Shown here: piece after piece, positions 4,806 to 26,956 of the stretch
Layout: every line of letters starts with the position of its first letter
How positions within the stretch are numbered: the stretch's first letter is position 1
Virus record (IMG/VR): IMGVR_UViG_3300021356_000096
Span: 1 to 31,615 of that record
Source: a virus
Reading direction: 5' to 3' (one strand)
Length of the DNA stretch: 31,615 bases
Made by a program: the position numbers and the translations under genes
Notes under the pieces: generated by a model
What the model saw: the letters and a program-made list of their open reading frames with translations, nothing else
The model's database searches: none
Told to the model about the DNA's origin: nothing

Positions 4806-4813
4806 TATAAATA
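4806..4813 (+). promoter_or_regulatory. T4-type late promoter, rightward
   Basis: Exact TATAAATA on the plus strand, 34 bases before the ATG of the gp48-like gene. The expected start is near 4820-4821, giving a leader of about 27 nt. It would drive the long rightward baseplate operon. Confidence 0.77.
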
Positions 4814-8107: not shown

Positions 8108-9004
8108 ATGAGAGAGTTTGTCGGAAAGGGGAACTTCACTTGGTTTTTCGGTGTAGTTGAAGATCGTAACGACCCATCGCAACTGGGTCGTGTGCGTGTT
8201 CGCGCATACGGTTACCACACTGATGACAAAGATAAAATACCGACAGACTCTTTACCATGGGCTATACCTTTGGGTGGGATTGATTCCGCATCAATTAGCG
8301 GTATCGGTAAATCACCGACTGGTATGGTTGAAGGAACATGGGTTGTAGGATTCTTTTTAGATGGCGATAGGGCGCAAGAGCCTGCTGTAGTTGGCACTAT
8401 TGCTGGTGCTCCATCTCAGTCTGCTGATACAGCGTTTGGTTTTAATGACCCAAATGGTATTTATCCCAAATACACTGACGAGTCGGATGTAAATAAAAGG
8501 GCGAGAGGTGTTGCTGATGAAACAGAAGAAGATGCTGGTAAGATAAGCATACCACCATCAACATATGCTCCAGTATATCCGATGAACCACGTTATGGAAA
8601 CTGAGTCGGGTCATTATAAAGAATATGATGATACTGAGGGCGCAGAAAGGATTAAAGAGTTACATAGAAGCGGTACGATGTATGAGTTGTATCCTGATGG
8701 TGATAAAGTAACTCGAGTTGTAAAAGACAACTACACTCTTGTCGCTAGTAATGATAATCTGCACGTTAAAGGTAATGTTACAATTTTTGTAGATGGAGAT
8801 ACTAACCTTACAGTCGCAGGAACTACGACAGTTGATACACCAACGACCAACTGGACTGGTGATATAAATCTAGTTGGTGATTTAGATATTACTGGTAAAT
8901 CTACAGCATCTGTCGATCATGTTTCGGCAGGAATATCTGGTAAGGGTCATACTCATACTGATACTCCAGGACTTGGTGCTGGTACTACGAGCAAGCCGAA
9001 GTAG
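8108..9004 (+). CDS. 5: gp5/VgrG-like central spike, no lysozyme domain
   Basis: A 298-residue protein. Residues about 10-100 form an OB-fold start typical of gp5/VgrG ('WFFGVVEDRNDPSQLGRVRVRAYGYH', split by position; then VVGFFLDGD and EPAVVGTIAG). After a linker, residues 163-215 carry the VgrG-like 'ETESGHYKEYDDTEG' and 'LYPDGDKVTRVV' strands leading into a beta-helix needle rich in V-x-G and T/D repeats (about 215-270). The end has GHTHTD with H281 and H283, which resembles the HxH iron-binding tip of P2-type spikes. T4 gp5 has 575 residues and a lysozyme domain between OB fold and needle; that domain is absent here. The protein should pierce the outer membrane mechanically. Start is ATG right after the previous stop. 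Confidence 0.85.
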   Translation: MREFVGKGNFTWFFGVVEDRNDPSQLGRVRVRAYGYHTDDKDKIPTDSLPWAIPLGGIDSASISGIGKSPTGMVEGTWVVGFFLDGDRAQEPAVVGTIAGAPSQSADTAFGFNDPNGIYPKYTDESDVNKRARGVADETEEDAGKISIPPSTYAPVYPMNHVMETESGHYKEYDDTEGAERIKELHRSGTMYELYPDGDKVTRVVKDNYTLVASNDNLHVKGNVTIFVDGDTNLTVAGTTTVDTPTTNWTGDINLVGDLDITGKSTASVDHVSAGISGKGHTHTDTPGLGAGTTSKPK

Positions 9005-9011
9005 GTATTAT

Positions 9012-9443
9012 ATGTCACATACACAGTTTCTAGACGAATCAGAATTTTCGCTTAAAATAGGTGGCATCGAGATCAACCCAACAACAGGGGATGGTATTGA
9101 GGGTCTGTTAAAACTTGATAATTGGACTATAGAAAAAGATAACACTAACCTTGTATTCAAGTACAATAGTGTTGAAAAGTTTAGGCTCTCCAATATTGAT
9201 GGCGCTTCATCTATTTCGGCTAGATATGAGGAGTATGTGTATACATCAGCAAACCAACAAACAACCTTTACTGGTAGTGATGATTTCGGAGAGACGTTAT
9301 CTTACAGTGAAGGGAAAGTTACAGTGTTTATGAATGGCGTTAGGTTGATGTCTAATACTGACTTCACAGCAACTAATGGTACATCTGTTATTTTTGAAGA
9401 ACCAGTAAGTAACAATGATATTATTACAATACAATCCTTCTAG
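9012..9443 (+). CDS. Small fibre-like structural protein
   Basis: A 143-residue protein. I choose the ATG at 9012, seven bases after the spike stop, since earlier in-frame starts lie inside the spike gene. The N-terminal half has 'SLKIGGIEINPTTGDG' and 'FKYNSVEKFRLSNIDG', patterns common at the base of phage fibres. The C-terminal half has 'TTFTGSDDFGETLSYSEGKV', then 'VFMNGVRLMSNTDFTATNGT' and 'NNDIITIQSF'. That second module (a 'gkvtVFlNGvrL...dyta tnGtsi... D.i.i..f' beta domain) recurs in tail fibre proteins of marine phages. It probably decorates the baseplate or spike, or acts as a small adhesin. A late promoter box overlaps the region right after its stop, so it ends the first transcription block. 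Confidence 0.65.
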   Translation: MSHTQFLDESEFSLKIGGIEINPTTGDGIEGLLKLDNWTIEKDNTNLVFKYNSVEKFRLSNIDGASSISARYEEYVYTSANQQTTFTGSDDFGETLSYSEGKVTVFMNGVRLMSNTDFTATNGTSVIFEEPVSNNDIITIQSF

Positions 9444-9447
9444 GGAT

Positions 9448-9455
9448 TATAAATA
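9448..9455 (+). promoter_or_regulatory. T4-type late promoter
   Basis: Exact TATAAATA immediately after the fibre-like gene and 72 bases before the Hc1-like gene. It would boost the Hc1-like, gp25, gp6, gp7 and gp8 genes. Confidence 0.72.
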
Positions 9456-9476
9456 GAAACTAATATTACTTAAAGC

Positions 9477-9496
9477 GGTACAATATTTATTATACC
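9477..9496 (+). repeat. Imperfect inverted repeat in leader of Hc1-like gene
   Basis: The 20 bases from GGTACAATAT to TTATTATACC pair end to end with a single C/A mismatch besides the two central T bases. As RNA this gives a weak AT-rich hairpin, 30 bases before the ATG at 9527. It has no U-run after it, so it is not a terminator. Function unknown. Confidence 0.35.
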
Positions 9497-9526
9497 TGAT
9501 TGATTGGAAATGTCAAGGATTATTTT

Positions 9527-9697
9527 ATGTCACACGATAGTTTAGTTAATTTGTTTGAAACTTATATTCAAGAAAACGAAAAGTTTATTGGTGGTAATAA
9601 GGCAGCTGGTACAAGAGCAAGAAAGGCTCTAGCTGAGATAAGCAAATACTGTAAAGACAGAAGAAAAGAAATACAAGAATCTAAGAATTCAAAGTAG
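9527..9697 (+). CDS. Small histone H1-like (Hc1 family) protein
   Basis: A 56-residue protein from ATG at 9527; a TTG in frame at 9500 would add nine residues without better support. The segment 'EKFIGGNKAAGTRARKAL' followed by 'KYCKDRRKEIQE' matches the N-terminal part of the chlamydial Hc1 family (pattern GNKAA..R.R......K....RKE...K), which is a helical dimerising, DNA-binding domain. The long lysine-rich tail of chlamydial Hc1 is absent. Net charge is basic. It stands alone behind its own late promoter, in front of gp25 (6-base gap), inside a baseplate operon. It might help compact or protect the genome before packaging or be carried in virions; neither is shown. The family assignment rests on the conserved core alone. 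Confidence 0.7.
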   Translation: MSHDSLVNLFETYIQENEKFIGGNKAAGTRARKALAEISKYCKDRRKEIQESKNSK

Positions 9698-9703
9698 GGT
9701 TAA

Positions 9704-10120
9704 ATGCCAAATCATTCGAATGGTGCTAAATTAAAAGTAAGAGAAATATACAGTGACGTTGACTTGGGGTTCTTCGCTCATCCTGTTACTGGGAATGTTT
9801 CTAAAAAGACTAATCGCGAAGCTGTAAGGCAGTCGGTTAAGTCTCTCATACTTACAGATTATTATGATAGACCATTCAAACCAAATATTGGTTGTGGGAT
9901 TAGATACTATTTATTTGAGATGTTTACCCCAGCTGTAAAGCAGCAAATGGAAAGCGCCATCAGAGAAACGATAGCGAACCACGAACCAAGAGCTGATATT
10001 ATAAACGTCTTGGTTGAGGAAAGACAAGATGTGCACGCACTTGTAGTTTCAGTAGCGTTCATGATAATAAACGATCCAGATCCAGTTGTTCTGGATATAA
10101 TCTTAGAAAGAGTTAGGTAA
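9704..10120 (+). CDS. 25: gp25-like baseplate wedge protein
   Basis: A 138-residue protein; T4 gp25 has 132. The core 'REAVRQSVKSLILTDYYDRPF', read across residues 38-58, then 'NIGCGIRYYLFEMFTP' and the conserved E-P-R at 94-96 identify the gp25/TssE family, present in all contractile tails. In the wedge, gp25 binds the gp6 core bundle and the first sheath ring, helping to trigger sheath contraction. The stop TAA at 10118-10120 is followed directly by the ATG of gp6 at 10121 with no gap, fitting the two proteins' tight complex. AGGG lies just before the ATG. Confidence 0.92.
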   Translation: MPNHSNGAKLKVREIYSDVDLGFFAHPVTGNVSKKTNREAVRQSVKSLILTDYYDRPFKPNIGCGIRYYLFEMFTPAVKQQMESAIRETIANHEPRADIINVLVEERQDVHALVVSVAFMIINDPDPVVLDIILERVR

Positions 10121-11890
10121 ATGGCAGCAAATACATACTTACAGGTTTCAGAATTAGATTTTAGTGAGATAAGATCAAATTTAAAAACTTATTTGGAATC
10201 ACAAACAGCGCTAAAGGATTACGACTTCGAAGGTTCTGTGATGTCGACTCTTTTAGACGTATTGTCATATAACACTCATTATAATGCATATTATTTAAAT
10301 ATGGTTGCTAATGAAATGTTCTTGGATACTGCTCAGCAAAGAGACTCTGTAGTATCAAGAGCGAAAGAGCTTGGGTATACGCCTGTTTCTTCAGTTGGTG
10401 CTACGGCTGAAATTGAAATTACATTCTCAGGGGTAGAATCTGGTTTCGCACAGGTAATTATCCCTAAGAACTCTAAGTTTACCACTACCGTTGATGACGT
10501 AACATACACTTTCGTAACTCCTCAAGCCGAAAAGGTTGATGCCGATATTAATGGGGCGTTCAAGAAGAGCATAATTATAAAAGAGGGAGAGCCTCTTTCT
10601 CATAGTTGGACTGCTAGTGCTTCTAATCCTGTCAGATATATTATTCCAAATTCTGGAGTTGATACGAGTAGTATAACGGTAAGCGTTCAAGAATCATCTT
10701 CTGACGATACTGTTACTGAATTCAAATTAGCATCAAACATAAATCAAGTATATTCTACTTCTGCTGTGTATTTTATTGAAGAGACTGCTGACCGAAAGTA
10801 TGAAATCATATTTGGTTCAGGTTCTTTGGGCAAATCAATCAAAGCTGGAAATATCGTTACTGTTAATTATCTTGTCAATAATGCGAACGCTACTAATGGC
10901 GCTTCGACTTTTAGTGTTGATTCTATAAATCTCAATGCTCCTTATGATAGCGCAACAATAACGAAAGTTGTTTCTAAAGCTAACGGTGGTCGCGAACAGG
11001 AAACTGTAGAATCAATAAAGTTTGCAGCTCCAAGAAATTATCAAACTCAAAATAGAGCAGTTATCGCTGGCGATTATGAAAGAATAATTCTCAATGAAAA
11101 TGCTGACTTACAATCTGTTGTTGCGTTTGGTGGTGAAGAAGCATCCCCTCCGCAAAACGGAAAGGTGTTGATTGCTGCTAAACCATTTAATGAGAAGTTT
11201 TTGACAACTAGTCGTAAGGCTTCCCTTAAAGATTCTATATCTGACAGAACTCCACTTGCTGTTGATCCAGTTATTATCGATGGGGATTATACATATCTAA
11301 TTCCAAGGATCACTACATTCTATGATTTAACTAAATCGTCACTCACCGAATCTGCGGTTGAGGCTGACATATTAAATCAGATATCAGAATATTCCACAAA
11401 CAATCTTCAAAGGTTTGGTAATAAATTCAGATATTCGAGATTTGTAAGAACTCTAGATAATGCTGCTGGCGGTTACATTATGAATAATGATGCCAAGATA
11501 AGCATGCAAAAAAGAATAACCCCAAATACAGAAGCGGTTACTTCGGTTGAGATATTATTTAACAATGCTATAAGACCATCTACTGTAACATCAACCCAGT
11601 TTACATATAACGGATTTACGGCAAATCTTGATGATGATGGTTCTGGAAATTTAAGGATATTCAGATATACGGATGATAATACAATTGTTATTATTGATAC
11701 CAACGCTGGAACAATAGATTATAATTCTGGTCGATTATTCTTACCAAACTTCGCTTTAACTGCATATGCGGATTTAGAGTTAAAGATTACAGTAACTCCT
11801 GAGAATTTAGACGTAAATCCAGTTAGGGAACAGGTTCTGTTGATGGAACCTAATGATGCAATTATTACTGTAATCGGCGAGCAAACCTAA
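10121..11890 (+). CDS. 6: gp6-like baseplate wedge protein (baseplate J-like)
   Basis: A 589-residue protein; T4 gp6 has 660. The N-terminus ('LDFSEIRSNLKTYLESQ', 'YDFEGSVMSTLLDVLSYNTHYNAYY') is the gp6/baseplate J-like helical core that bundles with gp25 and gp7. Beta-rich domains follow ('YEIIFGSGSLGKSI', 'NYLVNNANATNG'), then 'RNYQTQNRAVIAGDYE' and a segment around residues 390-480 with 'YDLTKSSLTESAVEADIL' and 'RYSRFVRTLDNAAGGYI', typical of the gp6 dimerisation region. Twelve copies would form the continuous inner ring of the baseplate that drives the hexagon-to-star change. Its stop overlaps the gp7 start (TAATG at 11890). Confidence 0.88.
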   Translation: MAANTYLQVSELDFSEIRSNLKTYLESQTALKDYDFEGSVMSTLLDVLSYNTHYNAYYLNMVANEMFLDTAQQRDSVVSRAKELGYTPVSSVGATAEIEITFSGVESGFAQVIIPKNSKFTTTVDDVTYTFVTPQAEKVDADINGAFKKSIIIKEGEPLSHSWTASASNPVRYIIPNSGVDTSSITVSVQESSSDDTVTEFKLASNINQVYSTSAVYFIEETADRKYEIIFGSGSLGKSIKAGNIVTVNYLVNNANATNGASTFSVDSINLNAPYDSATITKVVSKANGGREQETVESIKFAAPRNYQTQNRAVIAGDYERIILNENADLQSVVAFGGEEASPPQNGKVLIAAKPFNEKFLTTSRKASLKDSISDRTPLAVDPVIIDGDYTYLIPRITTFYDLTKSSLTESAVEADILNQISEYSTNNLQRFGNKFRYSRFVRTLDNAAGGYIMNNDAKISMQKRITPNTEAVTSVEILFNNAIRPSTVTSTQFTYNGFTANLDDDGSGNLRIFRYTDDNTIVIIDTNAGTIDYNSGRLFLPNFALTAYADLELKITVTPENLDVNPVREQVLLMEPNDAIITVIGEQT

Positions 11891-14730
11891 TGATAAAGGC
11901 AAAACTGTCAAGCCTAGTAAAAAACCAGTTCCCTGACTTTTATAAAGAAGAGGGCGAAAATTTTCTCGCATTCATTGAAGCGTATTATGAGTATCTTGAG
12001 CAAAACGGCAAACTGACTGATGCCATACAAAACCTCGAAGACTATAAAAATATAAACACGACTCTTGATGAGTATCTTGATTACTTCCAAGATACGTTAC
12101 TCCCATCAGTTCCTCATGATGTGCTTGGCGATAAGAGATTAATGGCAAAGTATGTCAAAAATTTCAATATTGCTCGTGGCACAGAAGCATCATATAGGTT
12201 GATGTTTAGAGCGATTTATAATGAAGATATTGAGATAAATTATCCATCAGAACAAATGTTAAAGGTTTCTGACGGAGACTGGAGGCTAGATAGGTATCTT
12301 GTAACAAACTACGACACCCGTGCTTACGATCTTATTGGTAGAACAATACAAGGTAGGTTCTCAGGCTCACGTGCTTTAGTAGAAGATGTGGTTGGTCGTG
12401 TGGTTCGTAACCGTGATGTTATGCAAATTTTAGTTTCTAATGTTGTAGGTAGGTTTGAGCAGAACGAACCAATAAAAATCTACGAAGAAGAACTGACAGC
12501 AAATACATACTCACCCAAAGTTGAGGTTGGGATTAGTTCCCTGGACATTATTAATGCTGGTGGTGAATATGAAACTGGTGATGTTGTAGAACTAATTTCT
12601 GATAAAACTGGAGACCTCGGTAAAGTTGTTGTTACTGGGACAGTTGATCTTGGTGGTGCTATAACATTTGATTTGAAAGATGGCGGTTCGGGTTATACGA
12701 GTTCAGCTAATGGACCAGATCAAGGCGAGACGCAGGTTGAAATACTTGGCGGTGATGGGCAAACTCCTGCCAGCTTCACTGTAGATCTACCTGATATTGG
12801 TGATAGATTTGCTATCTACATGAACACAGATCTTATTAGTAAGCCGAACATATTTGGAGAAAAAGCTCCTAATGTAAATTATCCAGCAACAATGTTTAAA
12901 GATGCTAATACTGGCATAATGAACACTTTTGCCAATACATTATTGAGTTCACCCAATTACGGTTTTCAAGAACAGAATGAAACTGAAACGAATCAGGATT
13001 TCTTTACTAACGCCAATGCTGTTATTGTTATTGCCAATACCAAAGCAGTGCCGTTAAATTCAAGTTTGTACGGATCGTCCACTGGCGCCAATGCCCACGT
13101 TACTAATATTCTTGTTGGTACTGACGGTGCCACCGTATTGAAAGTAAATACCTATAAGAATTTTGATACAAATGATACAATCCATCTGGGGTTCAGTACT
13201 AGTGATGAATCTATCGGTACTGTAACGTCATTCAGTTCTAATGCTGTTGGTCGTCATATTTTGGATATCGGTGTTACTGATGGGGTTACTATTAGCGAGG
13301 GTGATGAGTTTGTATCAGTAAATCCTAACGAAGCTGGCAATTATAGTTTTGGCGTTGTTAAGAAAATTATCTCACAAGCCACTGACGCATATACGCACGA
13401 CCCAGAAGGAACTGCTGAAGTTCGTGATCTATATTCTGTTATGATCTCAGCTAACAGTACATCTCAACTAACTGATCAGTTTGATATTGGACCGATTGTT
13501 CCATTTAGAGAAGAAGATGGGATCAAAGTGGTGGGTAGTTCTACAGTCATCGCTAATGTAGCAACCGCTGCATATACTTCAAATACCAATGTTGAAAATA
13601 TACATATGAATATTGGTGACTGTATCATATTTAAAGAATCTACTTTTGGTACAATTGAAAACCTTTCTAATAGAGTTGGCGGTTCAGGATTTAGTGTTGC
13701 GCCAACAGTTGAATTAATTGAACCAAATATTTCAACTCTAGGTATTGGCGAGCAATATGTCACATTAGAAAGTGATGCAAGTTTAACAAATACTACAGAC
13801 TCAAACGATAAGCTGGTACAAGCATCTTCGGGAGCTTCTGGTGACTTGAAACATGTAGCGGATTCTGTACAACAACCTAATGGAAAGTACCATACTGTTG
13901 TTAGGTGTTGGCAAACATTCCTACAAAGAGAACCTGGAAACATATTCTTCGCTAATAATCAAAATGTAACATTGGAGCATTATGGTAGCGAGTATATCCC
14001 AGGAACTCTTGATACAAGAACTGTTGCTTCTTCTGAAACGGTTAAGATAGTTAATATTCAAGACGAAGGTGTTCTAGGTAAAAATGCTGTCGTCGATGCT
14101 AGGGTTGGTGCTGATGGTACTGCTACAGGTTTCCGTATCATAGATTCAGGTTTTTCATATATTGATGGCGAGCGTGTTCGTGTTAAGGAGTCGGGTAGAA
14201 CAAACTCCACTCAAGCTGTTGTTGATTTGACTTTATCTGGCGTTGCTAATTCTCAGGGATACTATGCCACTTCAAGAAGTCATGTATCAACCAAAAGAGG
14301 TTTCATACAAGATAGTAAATTCTACCAAGAGTATTCATACCAAGTTATCGCTCCATTAGCTGTTGAAAGATACAGAGATATAGCATTAAAGTTGGTACAC
14401 CCTGCAGGACAGGCTCTATTTGGCAAGTATCAACTACATTCGAACGTAAATATCGACATAGCAACTTCAAGAAAAAATACAACAATGCTAAAATCTGCTG
14501 GCACGGTTTCTATCACTGAAGATAGTTCTAGCATAGTTGGAACTGGAACTGAGTTTACTTCTCACTTCGGCACTGCTAATTCCATGATTGTAGAAATAAC
14601 TGAAAATAACTACATCAATATTCCGCTAAATAGTGTAACAAATGATACAACAGCAACTGCTAAAATTGCATGGAATGGTTCCGCGATTTCAGGCGCTAAA
14701 ATATTTTACAGGACAGGTGAAATAACCTAA
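11890..14730 (+). CDS. 7: gp7-like baseplate wedge protein, rearranged relative to T4
   Basis: A 946-residue protein; T4 gp7 has 1032. Its first ~200 residues ('FYKEEGENFLAFIEAYYEYL', 'DKRLMAKYVKNFNIARGTEASYRLMFRAIYNEDIEI' read in parts, 'LIGRTIQGRFSGSRALVEDV') correspond to the C-terminal third of T4 gp7 (FEAFCEAYIQYLSDG, DKRDAVARFFESRSYDFYSTKG, FKFLYNEEVEI-like, 'VGQTIYTATGRC'). The end ('ERYRDIALKLVHPAGQALFG') matches the T4 gp7 'SDVIRFVHPVGFGFIA' segment. Between them lie about 600 residues of beta-rich sequence, while the large N-terminal part of T4 gp7 is missing. In T4, gp7 is the wedge long arm that joins gp10, gp8 and gp6. The stop overlaps gp8's start. Confidence 0.8.
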   Translation: MIKAKLSSLVKNQFPDFYKEEGENFLAFIEAYYEYLEQNGKLTDAIQNLEDYKNINTTLDEYLDYFQDTLLPSVPHDVLGDKRLMAKYVKNFNIARGTEASYRLMFRAIYNEDIEINYPSEQMLKVSDGDWRLDRYLVTNYDTRAYDLIGRTIQGRFSGSRALVEDVVGRVVRNRDVMQILVSNVVGRFEQNEPIKIYEEELTANTYSPKVEVGISSLDIINAGGEYETGDVVELISDKTGDLGKVVVTGTVDLGGAITFDLKDGGSGYTSSANGPDQGETQVEILGGDGQTPASFTVDLPDIGDRFAIYMNTDLISKPNIFGEKAPNVNYPATMFKDANTGIMNTFANTLLSSPNYGFQEQNETETNQDFFTNANAVIVIANTKAVPLNSSLYGSSTGANAHVTNILVGTDGATVLKVNTYKNFDTNDTIHLGFSTSDESIGTVTSFSSNAVGRHILDIGVTDGVTISEGDEFVSVNPNEAGNYSFGVVKKIISQATDAYTHDPEGTAEVRDLYSVMISANSTSQLTDQFDIGPIVPFREEDGIKVVGSSTVIANVATAAYTSNTNVENIHMNIGDCIIFKESTFGTIENLSNRVGGSGFSVAPTVELIEPNISTLGIGEQYVTLESDASLTNTTDSNDKLVQASSGASGDLKHVADSVQQPNGKYHTVVRCWQTFLQREPGNIFFANNQNVTLEHYGSEYIPGTLDTRTVASSETVKIVNIQDEGVLGKNAVVDARVGADGTATGFRIIDSGFSYIDGERVRVKESGRTNSTQAVVDLTLSGVANSQGYYATSRSHVSTKRGFIQDSKFYQEYSYQVIAPLAVERYRDIALKLVHPAGQALFGKYQLHSNVNIDIATSRKNTTMLKSAGTVSITEDSSSIVGTGTEFTSHFGTANSMIVEITENNYINIPLNSVTNDTTATAKIAWNGSAISGAKIFYRTGEIT

Positions 14731-22567: not shown

Positions 22568-25500
22568 ATGACAGTAACTGTTGCAAATACCGAACTCCTG
22601 AACAGCTTTGATGCTTGGAGGCTAAACACAAACTTTATTGCTACTGTTATCAGTAATAACGTAGTTACAGTTTCAGGGACTGGAGATACTGCTCGTGGCG
22701 GTACTGCTACTGGTGATGGTCATGTTCATGGTCAGTTTTCGGCTAATAATTTATCAACTCCTGAATTAAGTGGCGGGATAGTCGGTAATCCAGGTCCAAT
22801 ATCAATTACATCTAACACCACAATTGTTTCTACAGTATCTGACTTTACAGTAGACTCTGATGCCACGTTCACTTCTAACGCAAACTTTACGATTACTGGT
22901 GAGAACAGAATGATCTTGCCTAGTGTTGAGAAGATACGTGTTGGCGGTGGTTCTGATGGTCAAGTATTAAGAATACAGCAAAACAACGAACCGCATTTTA
23001 AAGATTTCAAGCTAAGAGATTTACAAGGCGATCATGCCTTTGAATTGACGCATAACGATTTAACTCTGGCTGGCGGTAATACCGCATTTAGAGATGATGG
23101 TAATTCACCGCATTTAGTTTTCTCTGGCGGTCAAAGTAATACCGATACTGTTTCCGTTTATTTGGTTGGTTCCGCTCTTTCTGGCGATTCGGATTTATAC
23201 ATTAAGTTAGTTGATTCTGCTGGTGACTCTGCTCTAGTCATAACTGACTCAGGTAATACTATTGTCGCTACAATTGATTCTAACGGTAATGCTGATTTTA
23301 CAAATAATTTAACTGTAGATGGTGTAACAAGTTTAAACTCTACCTCTACCACAACGCTGACTGCTAATGGCGCAACAAATTTAGAATCAACATTAGACGT
23401 TGATGGTGCCACCACTCTAAACTCTACGCTAGACGTTGATGGTGGAACTACCTTAAATGCTGCCCTAGATGTTGACGGAGCAACTACTCTAAATTCAACC
23501 TTAGATGTTGATGGTGCGTCAACTCTAAATGGTCTAACAGTTACAACGTTGACTGCTAATGGCGCAGTGAATTTAGAATCAACTTTAGATGTTGATGGTG
23601 GAACTACTTTAAACTCAACCTTAGATGTTGATGGTGGGACTACATTAAATGCTGCCTTAGATGTTGATGGCGCCACTACTTTGAATTCAACCTTAGATGT
23701 TGATGGTGCGTCAACCTTACACAACCTTGATGCGATTGATGTAACTGCTAATGGTAACTTAATCATCAAGGGGAGCGCTAACCTACAAAGCACTGAGGTT
23801 ACAACACTAGACGCTAATGGTGCTGTAGACTTTACATCAACCCTAAATGTTGACGGCTCTACGACTCTTAATGCGCTAACCATTACAACTCTAACCGCTA
23901 ATGGCGCAGTAGATCTAGAATCAACCTTAGATGTTGATGGTGCCACTACTCTAAACTCTACGCTAGATGTTGATCTTGCTACTACTCTAAATTCAACCTT
24001 AGATGTTGATGGTGCGTCAACTCTACATGGTTTAACAGTTACAACGTTGACTGCTAATGGCAATACAATAATTAAAGGTAGTGCGAATTTACAAAGCGTT
24101 GAGGTTACGACACTAGACGCTAATGGTGCTGTAGACTTTACTTCTACTTTAAATGTTGACGGCTCTACGACTCTTAATGCTCTAACAACTACAACGTTGA
24201 CTGCTAATGGTGCTGTTGATTTAAAATCAACCTTAGACGTTGATGGTGACACTTCCCTTAATGATGTAACAGTTACAACGCTGACTGCTAATGGTGATAC
24301 AATAATCAAAGGTAGTGCGAATTTACAAAGCGCTGAAGTCACAACTCTAAATGCAAATAGTACAGTTAATTTCTACTCAGGAGCATTCTTCGCCAACGGT
24401 AACATTACGTTTGGTACAGATAGAACAGCTGAAACTGATGAAGCAACTAGACGTTCCCTGTGGGAAAGCGGTGCGTTGTCGACTCTCACGATATATGCGA
24501 ACACTGTATTTAAAGATAATGTTACTATTCCAGGTGGTGTTACTACTGAATCGGCAGGTGCTTTCGGTAGCATAACTGTATCTGGTGAGAGTCTATTAAA
24601 TGGTGATGTTACAGTCGGAAATGATGCTACTGATACTATTAGTATTGGTGGTACTATTGGTGGCGCTGTTACTCACTCAGGCGGTCAGTTATTCAATTCT
24701 TCAGGTCAGTTGGCAGTAGCTAGAATTGGCTCTGGGACTATAGCAAGCGGTAAGTTACAAGATAATTTAGTTGGCGATGCTGGGACTTATGGTAGTTCTA
24801 CAGTAGTTCCTTCTATTACAGTAAATTCTAAAGGTTTAATTACATCAATATCTAACAACAATATAGCTGGGTTGAGCAACTTTACTTATACTGTAGCCAA
24901 TACCACTCTTAGAATTACTTCTACTGACAGTACTGAATTTGATGTCAATCTTCCAGCTACTCAAACTGCAGCATCATCTGCAGCTGGGGATGATGTTCTT
25001 GGTTTGGCTTCGTTTAATTCAAGCCACTTCGCTGTTACTGATGGTTGGGTTAAACTTAAAAATTCAACAACTGGTCCAGTCCTTAATGTAACAGGAACTG
25101 CTAACGAAATTCAAGTAGACCGAACTCTCGGTACAACTCAAATCGGATTGCCTGATGACGTTTCGGTAACAGGTCAATTGTCTGTTGGTGAGAATGTTGT
25201 AATTACTGGTAACTTGACTGTTTCTGGAACTACAACTACCGTCAATACAACTGAGGTTAATATTGCTGACAATATGCTTGTATTGAATAGTGATGTCGGC
25301 GAAGGCGACCAACCCTCTGAGAACTCTGGATTTACTGTTAATCGTGGCGCACAGGCGAATGTTGTTTTACGTTGGAATGAAAACACCACTACTCCAGCGG
25401 ATAGTAGATGGCAATTATCTGCTAATAACGCAGACTACTATGATATTCTAACCAATAATGAACAGGCTATTACAGATAGAACAGAAACAACTAGCGTTGA

Positions 25501-26956
25501 TCGCAATAATGATTATGTATTACTATATGATGCTTCGGAAACTGGAAACACTTTAAGAAAGGCATCTATCGCTAACGTAGCTGCAGCTGGTCAAAAAGGA
25601 CAGAAAGGTCAAAAAGGCGAGAAGGGCGTCAAAGGTATAGATGGCGTTATTGGTGGCGACGGTGCTGACGGTGATAAGGGTGAAAAGGGTCAGAAAGGTC
25701 AAGCTGGCGCTAAAGGTCAAAAAGGCGAGAAGGGCGTCAAAGGTATAGATGGCGTTATTGGTAGCGATGGTACTGACGGTGATAAGGGTGAGAAGGGTCA
25801 GAAAGGTCAGAAAGGTCAAGCTGGCGCTAAAGGTCAGAAAGGTCAAAAAGGCGCTCAAGGTCAAAAGGGTGTTCTTGACTTACCAGCTGTTCCTAGTGAA
25901 GATAAAGTAGTATTCTATAACGAAAGTACTCCAGGTCATGATTATGCCACGCTTGGCGATAACATTAAGACAGATGGTTCCACTCTTCTCACTAGATACA
26001 TGCAAGAAGTTACTTTCGCCACAAGTTCAGGTGTAATACGATTTAACGATAACTTCGGTAGCAATGCTCCTGGCGCCAACACTGATTTAGTTGTCGATGT
26101 TGATGGTCGCTATATTATGCCATTCAATGTACGGAAAGGTGGCTCTTATGATACATATCATGATGCTTCTGGCGTTGGTGATGGTTCAAATTTCAATGTA
26201 GGTGAGGATTGGTCTCAGGCTGACACCAATAACGAACGTCGATTATATTTCGCTTCTAAGACGTTTGGTGCCCTTAATTCGGTAAATGAAACAGACGATC
26301 CAGTTTTCAACCCTGCTCTTAACACCGTATATCTGCCAACTACTAAAATTGGTCTCGCTGTCACGGGCTCTACTGCTACTACTCCAGCCACTGGTAATAT
26401 CTTTCTGTCTAACGGAGTTGGTCTTACTCTTACTGGAAGTTTAAGCAACGGTTCGTACACTGCTTCGTTTGGGCTGGCTAATGACAGACGAACTTCTGGC
26501 GACGCTGATGTATATGTCGGAAATAATGACACATATACTTTCTACGACAATAATATAATCAGTTGGTTCACTGGTGGTACTAAGAGAATGGCTCTGGATA
26601 ATGGCGGAGACCTATTCGTAGACAATGATGTAATCGCCATGGCTACTTCTCTACCTTCAGACGAAAGGTTAAAGGAAAATATACAAGTAGTTGATGGTGC
26701 GCTTGATAAGGTTTGTGCTTTGCGTGGCGTTACGTTCGATTGGAAAAAAGACGGAAAATCATCTGCTGGTTTGATAGCGCAAGAACTAGAAAAAGTATTA
26801 CCTTCGGCTGTTAAAGAAAGAAGTAAATTGGATAGCGAAGAAGAAGTAAAAACAGTAGATTATAATCAGTTAACAGCCTTATTCATTGAATCGATTAAAG
26901 AACTTAAAGCCGAGAACGAAGAACTGAGAGCGATGATTGAGGAGTTGAAGGAGTAA
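22568..26956 (+). CDS. Tail fibre with tandem repeats, collagen-like stretch and S74 chaperone
   Basis: A 1462-residue fibre. N-terminus: 'LLNSFDAWRLNTNFI', a start common in marine phage fibres, then beta-rich sequence. Residues about 250-600 hold repeats of LDVDGATTLNS type. After more beta-rich stalk, residues 1008-1101 are a collagen-like Gly-X-Y run (GQKGQKGEKG units with GIDGVIG interruptions). A distal domain (about 1105-1355) probably binds the host. The C-terminus is a peptidase S74 intramolecular chaperone: PSDERLKENI with S1364 and K1369 at the dyad spacing (S, then K five residues on), 'GLIAQELEKVLP', 'VDYNQLTALFIESIKELK' and a coiled-coil tail. Self-cleavage before S1364 would release about 99 residues after trimer folding. 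AAAGAGAA precedes the ATG. Confidence 0.88.
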   Translation: MTVTVANTELLNSFDAWRLNTNFIATVISNNVVTVSGTGDTARGGTATGDGHVHGQFSANNLSTPELSGGIVGNPGPISITSNTTIVSTVSDFTVDSDATFTSNANFTITGENRMILPSVEKIRVGGGSDGQVLRIQQNNEPHFKDFKLRDLQGDHAFELTHNDLTLAGGNTAFRDDGNSPHLVFSGGQSNTDTVSVYLVGSALSGDSDLYIKLVDSAGDSALVITDSGNTIVATIDSNGNADFTNNLTVDGVTSLNSTSTTTLTANGATNLESTLDVDGATTLNSTLDVDGGTTLNAALDVDGATTLNSTLDVDGASTLNGLTVTTLTANGAVNLESTLDVDGGTTLNSTLDVDGGTTLNAALDVDGATTLNSTLDVDGASTLHNLDAIDVTANGNLIIKGSANLQSTEVTTLDANGAVDFTSTLNVDGSTTLNALTITTLTANGAVDLESTLDVDGATTLNSTLDVDLATTLNSTLDVDGASTLHGLTVTTLTANGNTIIKGSANLQSVEVTTLDANGAVDFTSTLNVDGSTTLNALTTTTLTANGAVDLKSTLDVDGDTSLNDVTVTTLTANGDTIIKGSANLQSAEVTTLNANSTVNFYSGAFFANGNITFGTDRTAETDEATRRSLWESGALSTLTIYANTVFKDNVTIPGGVTTESAGAFGSITVSGESLLNGDVTVGNDATDTISIGGTIGGAVTHSGGQLFNSSGQLAVARIGSGTIASGKLQDNLVGDAGTYGSSTVVPSITVNSKGLITSISNNNIAGLSNFTYTVANTTLRITSTDSTEFDVNLPATQTAASSAAGDDVLGLASFNSSHFAVTDGWVKLKNSTTGPVLNVTGTANEIQVDRTLGTTQIGLPDDVSVTGQLSVGENVVITGNLTVSGTTTTVNTTEVNIADNMLVLNSDVGEGDQPSENSGFTVNRGAQANVVLRWNENTTTPADSRWQLSANNADYYDILTNNEQAITDRTETTSVDRNNDYVLLYDASETGNTLRKASIANVAAAGQKGQKGQKGEKGVKGIDGVIGGDGADGDKGEKGQKGQAGAKGQKGEKGVKGIDGVIGSDGTDGDKGEKGQKGQKGQAGAKGQKGQKGAQGQKGVLDLPAVPSEDKVVFYNESTPGHDYATLGDNIKTDGSTLLTRYMQEVTFATSSGVIRFNDNFGSNAPGANTDLVVDVDGRYIMPFNVRKGGSYDTYHDASGVGDGSNFNVGEDWSQADTNNERRLYFASKTFGALNSVNETDDPVFNPALNTVYLPTTKIGLAVTGSTATTPATGNIFLSNGVGLTLTGSLSNGSYTASFGLANDRRTSGDADVYVGNNDTYTFYDNNIISWFTGGTKRMALDNGGDLFVDNDVIAMATSLPSDERLKENIQVVDGALDKVCALRGVTFDWKKDGKSSAGLIAQELEKVLPSAVKERSKLDSEEEVKTVDYNQLTALFIESIKELKAENEELRAMIEELKE
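23320..24360 (+). repeat. Tandem ~36-bp coding repeats in tail fibre
   Basis: Twelve LDVD-type units (mostly LDVDG + TTLNS/STLNG) plus two LNVDGSTTLNA units alternate with LTANGAV-type units and three copies of IIKGSANLQS. Unit length is about 12 residues. Long stretches are nearly identical at base level, for example around 23400-23530 and 23590-23720, which points to recent duplication. Confidence 0.85.
25589..25872 (+). repeat. Collagen-like Gly-X-Y coding repeat
   Basis: About 94 residues of Gly-X-Y, mostly GQK, GEK, GAK and GDK triplets with Lys in the Y position. A block including GEKGVKGIDGVIG occurs twice with nearly the same bases (from 25617 and 25729). Confidence 0.85.

Follow-up and report, generated by a model that had tools for sequence, protein, structure and literature searches.

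The stretch of bacterial-virus DNA analyzed here (31,615 nucleotides; hereafter the window) carries a small plus-strand gene for a 56-aa Hc1-family (PF07432) protein at positions 9527–9697, lying among baseplate genes on the same strand. Upstream are gp5, the baseplate hub (8108–9004; phrog_430, E = 5.9e-90), and a tail-fiber-like gene (9012–9443; phrog_38058, E = 4.9e-6 when residues from 9033 were searched). The next cistron after Hc1 is gp25, a baseplate wedge subunit (9704–10120; phrog_261, E = 4.4e-41), which is followed by gp6, also a wedge subunit (10121–11890; phrog_219, E = 4.2e-150), and by a further baseplate wedge protein (11890–14730; phrog_17744, E = 7.5e-90).

The leader of Hc1 contains two promoter motifs on opposite strands. 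The octamer TATAAATA, which we take to be the T4 late promoter consensus, occupies 9448–9455 on the plus strand, directly after the stop of the preceding gene at 9443. A sigma70-type promoter (TTGACA-N16-TATAAT, a 12/12 match) lies on the minus strand at 9489–9516 and points back towards gp5. Its −35 box overlaps the Shine-Dalgarno sequence of Hc1 (AAGGA, 9515–9519, read from the sequence), which is located 7 bases upstream of the ATG start codon. Hc1 is presumed to open a late unit, Hc1-gp25-gp6, that comes after gp5 and the tail-fiber-like gene. An earlier note on this DNA had described Hc1 as having its own late promoter inside a baseplate operon. The promoter motif is indeed found in front of the gene, but Hc1 would head the late unit rather than lie inside it.

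The Hc1 Protein

PF07432 (Hc1) was the sole Pfam match of the 56-aa protein at E values up to 10 (E = 2.2e-15), and the score of 56.7 bits is above the curated cut-off of 23.5. The match extends over profile positions 6–57 of 57, so the protein is a near end-to-end Hc1 domain. All members of the phage alignment A2 (24/24) also match PF07432. The earlier note had assigned the product to this family from its core, GNKAAGTRARKAL...RRKEIQ; the core is present and the profile search bears the assignment out. Six residues (Y13, R32, L35, K40, R45, and R46) are invariant across 124 phage rows, a count that includes the window. The median pN/pS of Hc1 is 0.21 (186 pairs with 0.15 < pS < 0.6), which indicates that ORF 9527–9697 is under selection and is not a chance ORF.

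The AlphaFold model of Hc1 is a helical hairpin, consisting of helices 3–21 and 25–55 (mean pLDDT 95.1). No informative structural neighbor was found by sequence search, Foldseek, or VIA-align. The best solved-structure hit from sequence had an E value of 1.2 and was ignored; the best Foldseek (E = 0.98) and VIA-align (Z = 7.0) hits are ordinary for helical hairpins. PHROGs yielded no family match at E values up to 1, and the HctA equivalog model NF051889 (threshold score 100) was unmatched at E values up to 0.1. The net charge of Hc1 is a modest +4, the mean for 77 unique gp25-context Hc1 proteins is +2.6 (range 0 to 6), and strong charge-driven binding is therefore not obvious. The positive moments seen on helical wheels are weak.

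Hc1 Is Conserved next to gp25

A scan of viral contigs listed 599 candidate stretches, of which 594 encode an Hc1 relative; we retained the best 80. The next conserved gene after Hc1 is gp25 in 79 of these best 80 of at least 594 relatives. In the 80th (locus L073) the contig ends early, yet a gp25-like ORF begins there. In some of the 80 loci, Hc1 and gp25 are separated by a single small additional ORF or by ∼200 bp. Gaps of about 200 bp are present in L013, L014, L017, L022, L035, and L042; in L202, from the same contig as L013, the gap is occupied by a 62-aa basic ORF. Among 24 loci anchored on gp25, Hc1 is upstream in 22/22 that have upstream sequence.

Median identity to the window across 87 loci is 76% for Hc1, 66% for gp25, and 59% for gp6, and Hc1 identity exceeds that of gp25 in 81/87, although this comparison is biased by most loci having been found through Hc1. 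Hc1 still adjoins gp25 where the identity of gp25 to that of the window drops to 25–40%. The tail-fiber-like gene at 9012–9443 is swapped for other genes in many relatives. In 29/149 loci the gene directly upstream of Hc1 belongs to a PAAR cluster, one member of which matches PF05488; this suggests that the gp5–gp25 interval gains and loses genes while Hc1 stays. The earlier note considered a protein of this kind unexpected among wedge genes; this is half right, in that many relatives keep the gene in this position beside gp25. The open-licence literature searched yielded no report of a fixed Hc1-gp25 synteny.

The counts that follow use 154 unique rows, comprising 97 in gp25 context, 50 in other contexts, and 7 cut by the end of the locus. 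Rows were removed when they duplicated another exactly in both the protein and the 150 nt, or when no ATG lay close to the start of the profile. Of the gp25 rows, 94 have 150 nt upstream. The rows are related rather than independent, and fall into 62 clusters at 90% gp25 identity. The main clade, to which the window belongs, was defined by gp25 identity (60%, single linkage).

Two Opposed Promoters in the Hc1 Leader

The octamer TATAAATA was found within 150 nt upstream of Hc1 in 48/94 unique gp25-context loci, versus a Markov mean of 2.3 (maximum 8 in 200), while its reverse complement was found in none of the 94 upstream stretches. Only 1/50 loci with Hc1 at a non-gp25 site has the octamer in the 150 nt before the gene. 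The split by clade is strong (47/71 in the window's own gp25 clade versus 1/23 outside), such that the gene's own late promoter is a feature of the window's clade and the Hc1-gp25 order spreads wider. Judged from the motif, Hc1 would be expressed late.

Both strands of the 31.6-kb window were searched for TATAAATA, which gave three copies on the plus strand (4806, 9448, and 19873) and one on the minus strand (4835). All four are positioned 33–79 nt ahead of a gene start. The pair at 4806 (plus) and 4835 (minus) separates a block of minus-strand genes from the plus-strand gp53/gp5 block, and GC skew changes sign there.

The antisense sigma70-type site at 9516–9489 is the only minus-strand site in the whole window that matches at 11/12 or better. 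Minus-strand sites of this quality occur in 55/94 gp25-context leaders, against about 0.6 expected from their density elsewhere in the same loci. The corresponding plus-strand search of these leaders yielded 0/94, and shuffled leaders (one shuffle each) gave no site at 11/12 or better. The 50 other-context leaders contain none on the minus strand and one on the plus strand. The site is confined to the main clade, being present in 55/71 main-clade loci and in 0/23 gp25-context loci outside it; as the rows are related, we also counted clusters at 90% gp25 identity, of which 32/62 have the site.

Of the 67 sites matching at 10/12 or better, all but one (66) have a spacing of 16 or 17, and 61 have a −35 box whose start is 9–11 nt from the Hc1 ATG. 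Judged by eye, the promoter is conserved, the spacer varies, and the transcribed sequence beyond the first ∼20 nt is not conserved. An antisense RNA from this promoter would cross the late promoter towards gp5. Folding of the leader RNA revealed no structure (z = 0.80), and Rfam gave no match on 9000–9800 at E values up to 1.

When 11 viral records were scanned for exact TTGACW-N16/17-TATAAT, 8 contained a match, and in three of these (G304, G307, and G007) the sole match is the Hc1 leader. The 110-kb record G005, which includes locus L101, has 14 exact sites, 12 of them on one strand, compared with 1 in the backwards control. At least one of these phages thus contains many such promoters, and the 14 sites are likely a set of early promoters. 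No report of a conserved antisense sigma70 promoter in the Hc1 leader was found in the open-licence literature searched. Phage Hc1 itself is already in print; the fixed synteny and the conserved antisense promoter, a concrete regulatory element beside Hc1, are the added interest.

Hc1 Occupies Other Sites in Other Phages

A query from the single-cell phage AG-345-O18 gave 243 loci, of which 80 further ones were kept; in most of these Hc1 lies away from gp25. A search with the gp25 profile detected no gp25-like ORF within 2.5 kb downstream in the 50 unique other-context rows (0/50; downstream room of at least 759 bases). In 16/50, Hc1 directly follows a gene of the gp33 cluster, with a gap of 4–90 bp. 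One member of this cluster matches PF16805, the late-transcription coactivator (E = 1.8e-29). Downstream of gp33-Hc1, gp59 (PF08993/PF08994, for one member) follows either immediately or beyond a single small ORF cluster, and a gp32-like ORF, named by eye, is located farther along. The gp33-Hc1-gp59 order is seen in another T4-like phage group (L083 and L255–L274). Other sites of Hc1 are near nrdB, glutaredoxin, or segE-like genes, and in 17/50 loci the neighbors belong to none of 30 numbered clusters.

A single Hc1 per record was found in 15/15 records searched, most of which are fragments. Nine of the 15 also hold gp25; Hc1 is adjacent to it in 5 and 11–87 kb distant in 4. In the 4 records with a distant Hc1, another gene directly precedes gp25. 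A tree of Hc1 proteins was built from 180 short rows over 59 columns; many of its forks stayed open, and it was used for label clustering only. In this tree the gp25-context rows form nearly one group (2 label changes, one not ruled out).

The earlier note had raised a co-opted assembly function. This is disfavored because in other T4-like phages the gene is sited apart from gp25 (50 unique loci with no gp25-like ORF in the 2.5 kb downstream), and because 4 records have gp25 without an adjacent Hc1. Kept beside gp25 in relatives of the window and placed elsewhere in other viruses, Hc1 is probably a DNA-handling helper and not a piece of the tail.

The Hc1 Family outside Phages and Comparison Systems

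Of 424 homologues found in assemblies, the nearest 80 were kept, all from bacterial assemblies apart from one archaeal-labelled assembly. Their median length is 58 aa, 79/80 are no longer than 65 aa, and the remaining one has 78 aa. This longest homologue (L170) is the only one of the nearest 80 with a K/P/A-rich basic C-terminal extension. Short Hc1 was found in 87/148 genomes of the phylum of a Flavobacterium and in 2/144 genomes of the class of a Rickettsiales assembly. The short PF07432 proteins of Bacteroidota and other bacteria resemble the phage protein in size and in their GNKAAGTRARK-type core, but they are genes of bacterial assemblies and not late-phage genes. The bare Hc1 domain is therefore widespread, both in bacteria (87/148 genomes in that one phylum sample) and in uncultured phages (at least 594 stretches). 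No function for it was found in the literature searched, and a phage Hc1 gene with a late promoter is a tractable setting in which to study its role.

In chlamydial Hc1 (HctA), the conserved N terminus mediates dimerization and the lysine-rich C terminus is responsible for DNA binding (PMC2848022). Both proteins fall under Pfam Hc1 and share the conserved N-terminal domain, but the phage protein stops at residue 56, has no lysine-rich tail, and is not matched by NF051889. The absence of the tail was correctly described in the earlier note. It is not peculiar to the phage protein, as is clear from the lengths of the kept bacterial and archaeal-labelled homologues. Since the part shared is the dimerization part and not the DNA-binding tail, DNA binding does not follow from homology; the note's description of a DNA-binding protein is not established for an N-terminal domain alone with a net charge of +4.

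Histone H1-like proteins of moraphages are also PF07432 members in tailed phages, and a role in compaction has been proposed for them (PMC12619734). The passages that treat them describe neither gp25 synteny nor a late promoter. That paper was the only one to mention PF07432 by name in the open-licence literature searched, and PMC8557907 contains no occurrence of "histone". The "histone H1" of S-SRM01 is likewise a PF07432 protein of a tailed phage, with its gene ∼87 kb from gp25.

T4 DsbA offers a parallel for a small DNA-binding protein gene in the gp33/gp59/gp32 neighborhood (T4 map), where Hc1 is found in some phages. The dsbA gene is coupled to gene 33, and the DNA-binding protein of ∼10 kDa that it encodes has weak sites of AT-rich sequence at late promoters (PMC2988020). 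It precedes gene 33, whereas Hc1 follows gp33 in other phages and lies beside gp25 in the window. The comparison is limited by DsbA being non-essential and without effect on late transcription in vitro, the latter an unpublished observation quoted in the same paper. A relationship between Hc1 and DsbA received an hhalign probability of 0.3%, a weak single-sequence test that detected no similarity. We consider T4 DsbA the nearest functional comparison and not a demonstrated relative.

Discussion

The reading that we favor, with moderate confidence, is that short-form Hc1 is a late-made, probably dimeric two-helix hairpin that most likely acts on phage DNA in trans, as an accessory factor of the nucleoid type. 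By analogy with chlamydial Hc1, the hairpin would dimerize. It would be made late, from the cistron that opens the wedge-gene unit, and its position at the gp25 operon most likely serves mainly to secure this late expression. We infer that Hc1 contacts DNA or polymerase, and that the process it serves in trans may be late transcription, replication, or genome handling. One copy per record, placed at several sites, one of which is beside the late-transcription coactivator, fits a trans-acting factor better than a part of the baseplate. Several points weigh against a DNA accessory. The shared domain is the dimerization part of chlamydial Hc1, the net charge is only +4 and the helical-wheel moments are weak, there is no informative structural neighbor, and no relation to T4 DsbA was detectable, albeit in a weak test. 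That Hc1 has long been kept next to gp25 might also reflect a link with the wedge genes.

Genome compaction, in which late Hc1 would coat or fold new phage DNA before or during packaging and might enter the virion, is possible but unlikely in our view. It is consistent with the late-promoter motif and with membership of the Hc1 family, and the same proposal has been printed for moraphages (PMC12619734). The missing lysine tail and low net charge argue against it, as does the near absence of TATAAATA from the 150 nt before Hc1 at its other sites (1/50 loci).

A chaperone of the baseplate wedge, or a minor structural protein that works with gp25 and gp6, would explain why Hc1 stays beside gp25 even across phages whose gp25 has 25–40% identity to that of the window, and why the gp25-context rows are nearly one group in the tree (with the label changes noted above). 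We nevertheless consider such a role improbable, as T4-like phages with gp25 carry Hc1 elsewhere, the same family is found in bacterial assemblies, and no PHROG structural match was seen at E values up to 1.

A regulatory reading of the two opposed promoters is, in our view, equally improbable. On this account they would make the Hc1 leader a conserved switch of head-to-head design. Early in infection, sigma70 polymerase of the host would transcribe antisense across the late promoter towards gp5, providing an RNA primer for an oriE-like origin or causing interference; late, phage polymerase would pass through the same DNA into Hc1-gp25. If this were true, synthesis of a histone-like protein would coincide exactly, in place and in time, with the end of the early event.

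Very doubtful is the proposal that the leader is an oriE-like locus, at which replication would be primed or permitted by the conserved antisense promoter of early type, with Hc1 beside it as an origin accessory. In its favor are the frequency of the antisense promoter (55/94 loci, 55/71 in the main clade) and the retention of the promoter while the transcribed sequence beyond ∼20 nt diverges, by eye. In T4, oriE apparently requires an early promoter (PMC3016281). The T4 record annotates the oriE primer RNA as complementary to the gene 5 transcript, and a 10/12 minus-strand site is found ∼20 bp from the annotated oriE. What the two loci share, here at the level of sequence motif, is a promoter of early type that is directed antisense to gene 5 and placed on the gene 5/gene 6 side. 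The T4 site sits inside gene 5, however, and the leader in the window differs in its exact position, in being confined to one clade (0/23 gp25-context loci outside the main clade have the antisense site), and in having no iterons. No evenly spaced repeats were found in 8900–9720, only two-copy families, and GC skew does not switch at 9.5 kb; an origin at the Hc1 leader is thus supported by neither GC skew nor iterons. Eight other isolates were compared. Melnitz, S-PM2, S-RSM4, and Mosig have minus-strand sites of 10–11/12 within about 1 kb upstream of gp25, but comparable sites occur elsewhere in the same stretches; HTVC008M, Cr30, phiM12, and DLP_6 have none in that interval. Hc1 showed no resemblance to RepEA or RepEB in weak single-sequence tests.

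In a host-directed role, phage Hc1 would pair with or mimic its host counterpart and so remodel the nucleoid or gene expression of the host. Short Hc1 is common in the phylum of a Flavobacterium (87/148 genomes) and shares the GNKAAGTRARK core, but we think this role very unlikely, as late expression fits host takeover poorly and Hc1 is present in only 2/144 genomes of the class of a Rickettsiales assembly.

The gp5 product (8108–9004) has just 298 aa, and its best stretch corresponds to positions 13–141 of the 868-position hub/lysozyme profile phrog_430; given this short coverage, the lysozyme part may be missing. Positions 22568–26956 encode a large fiber-like protein with many GQKGEKG collagen-like repeats.
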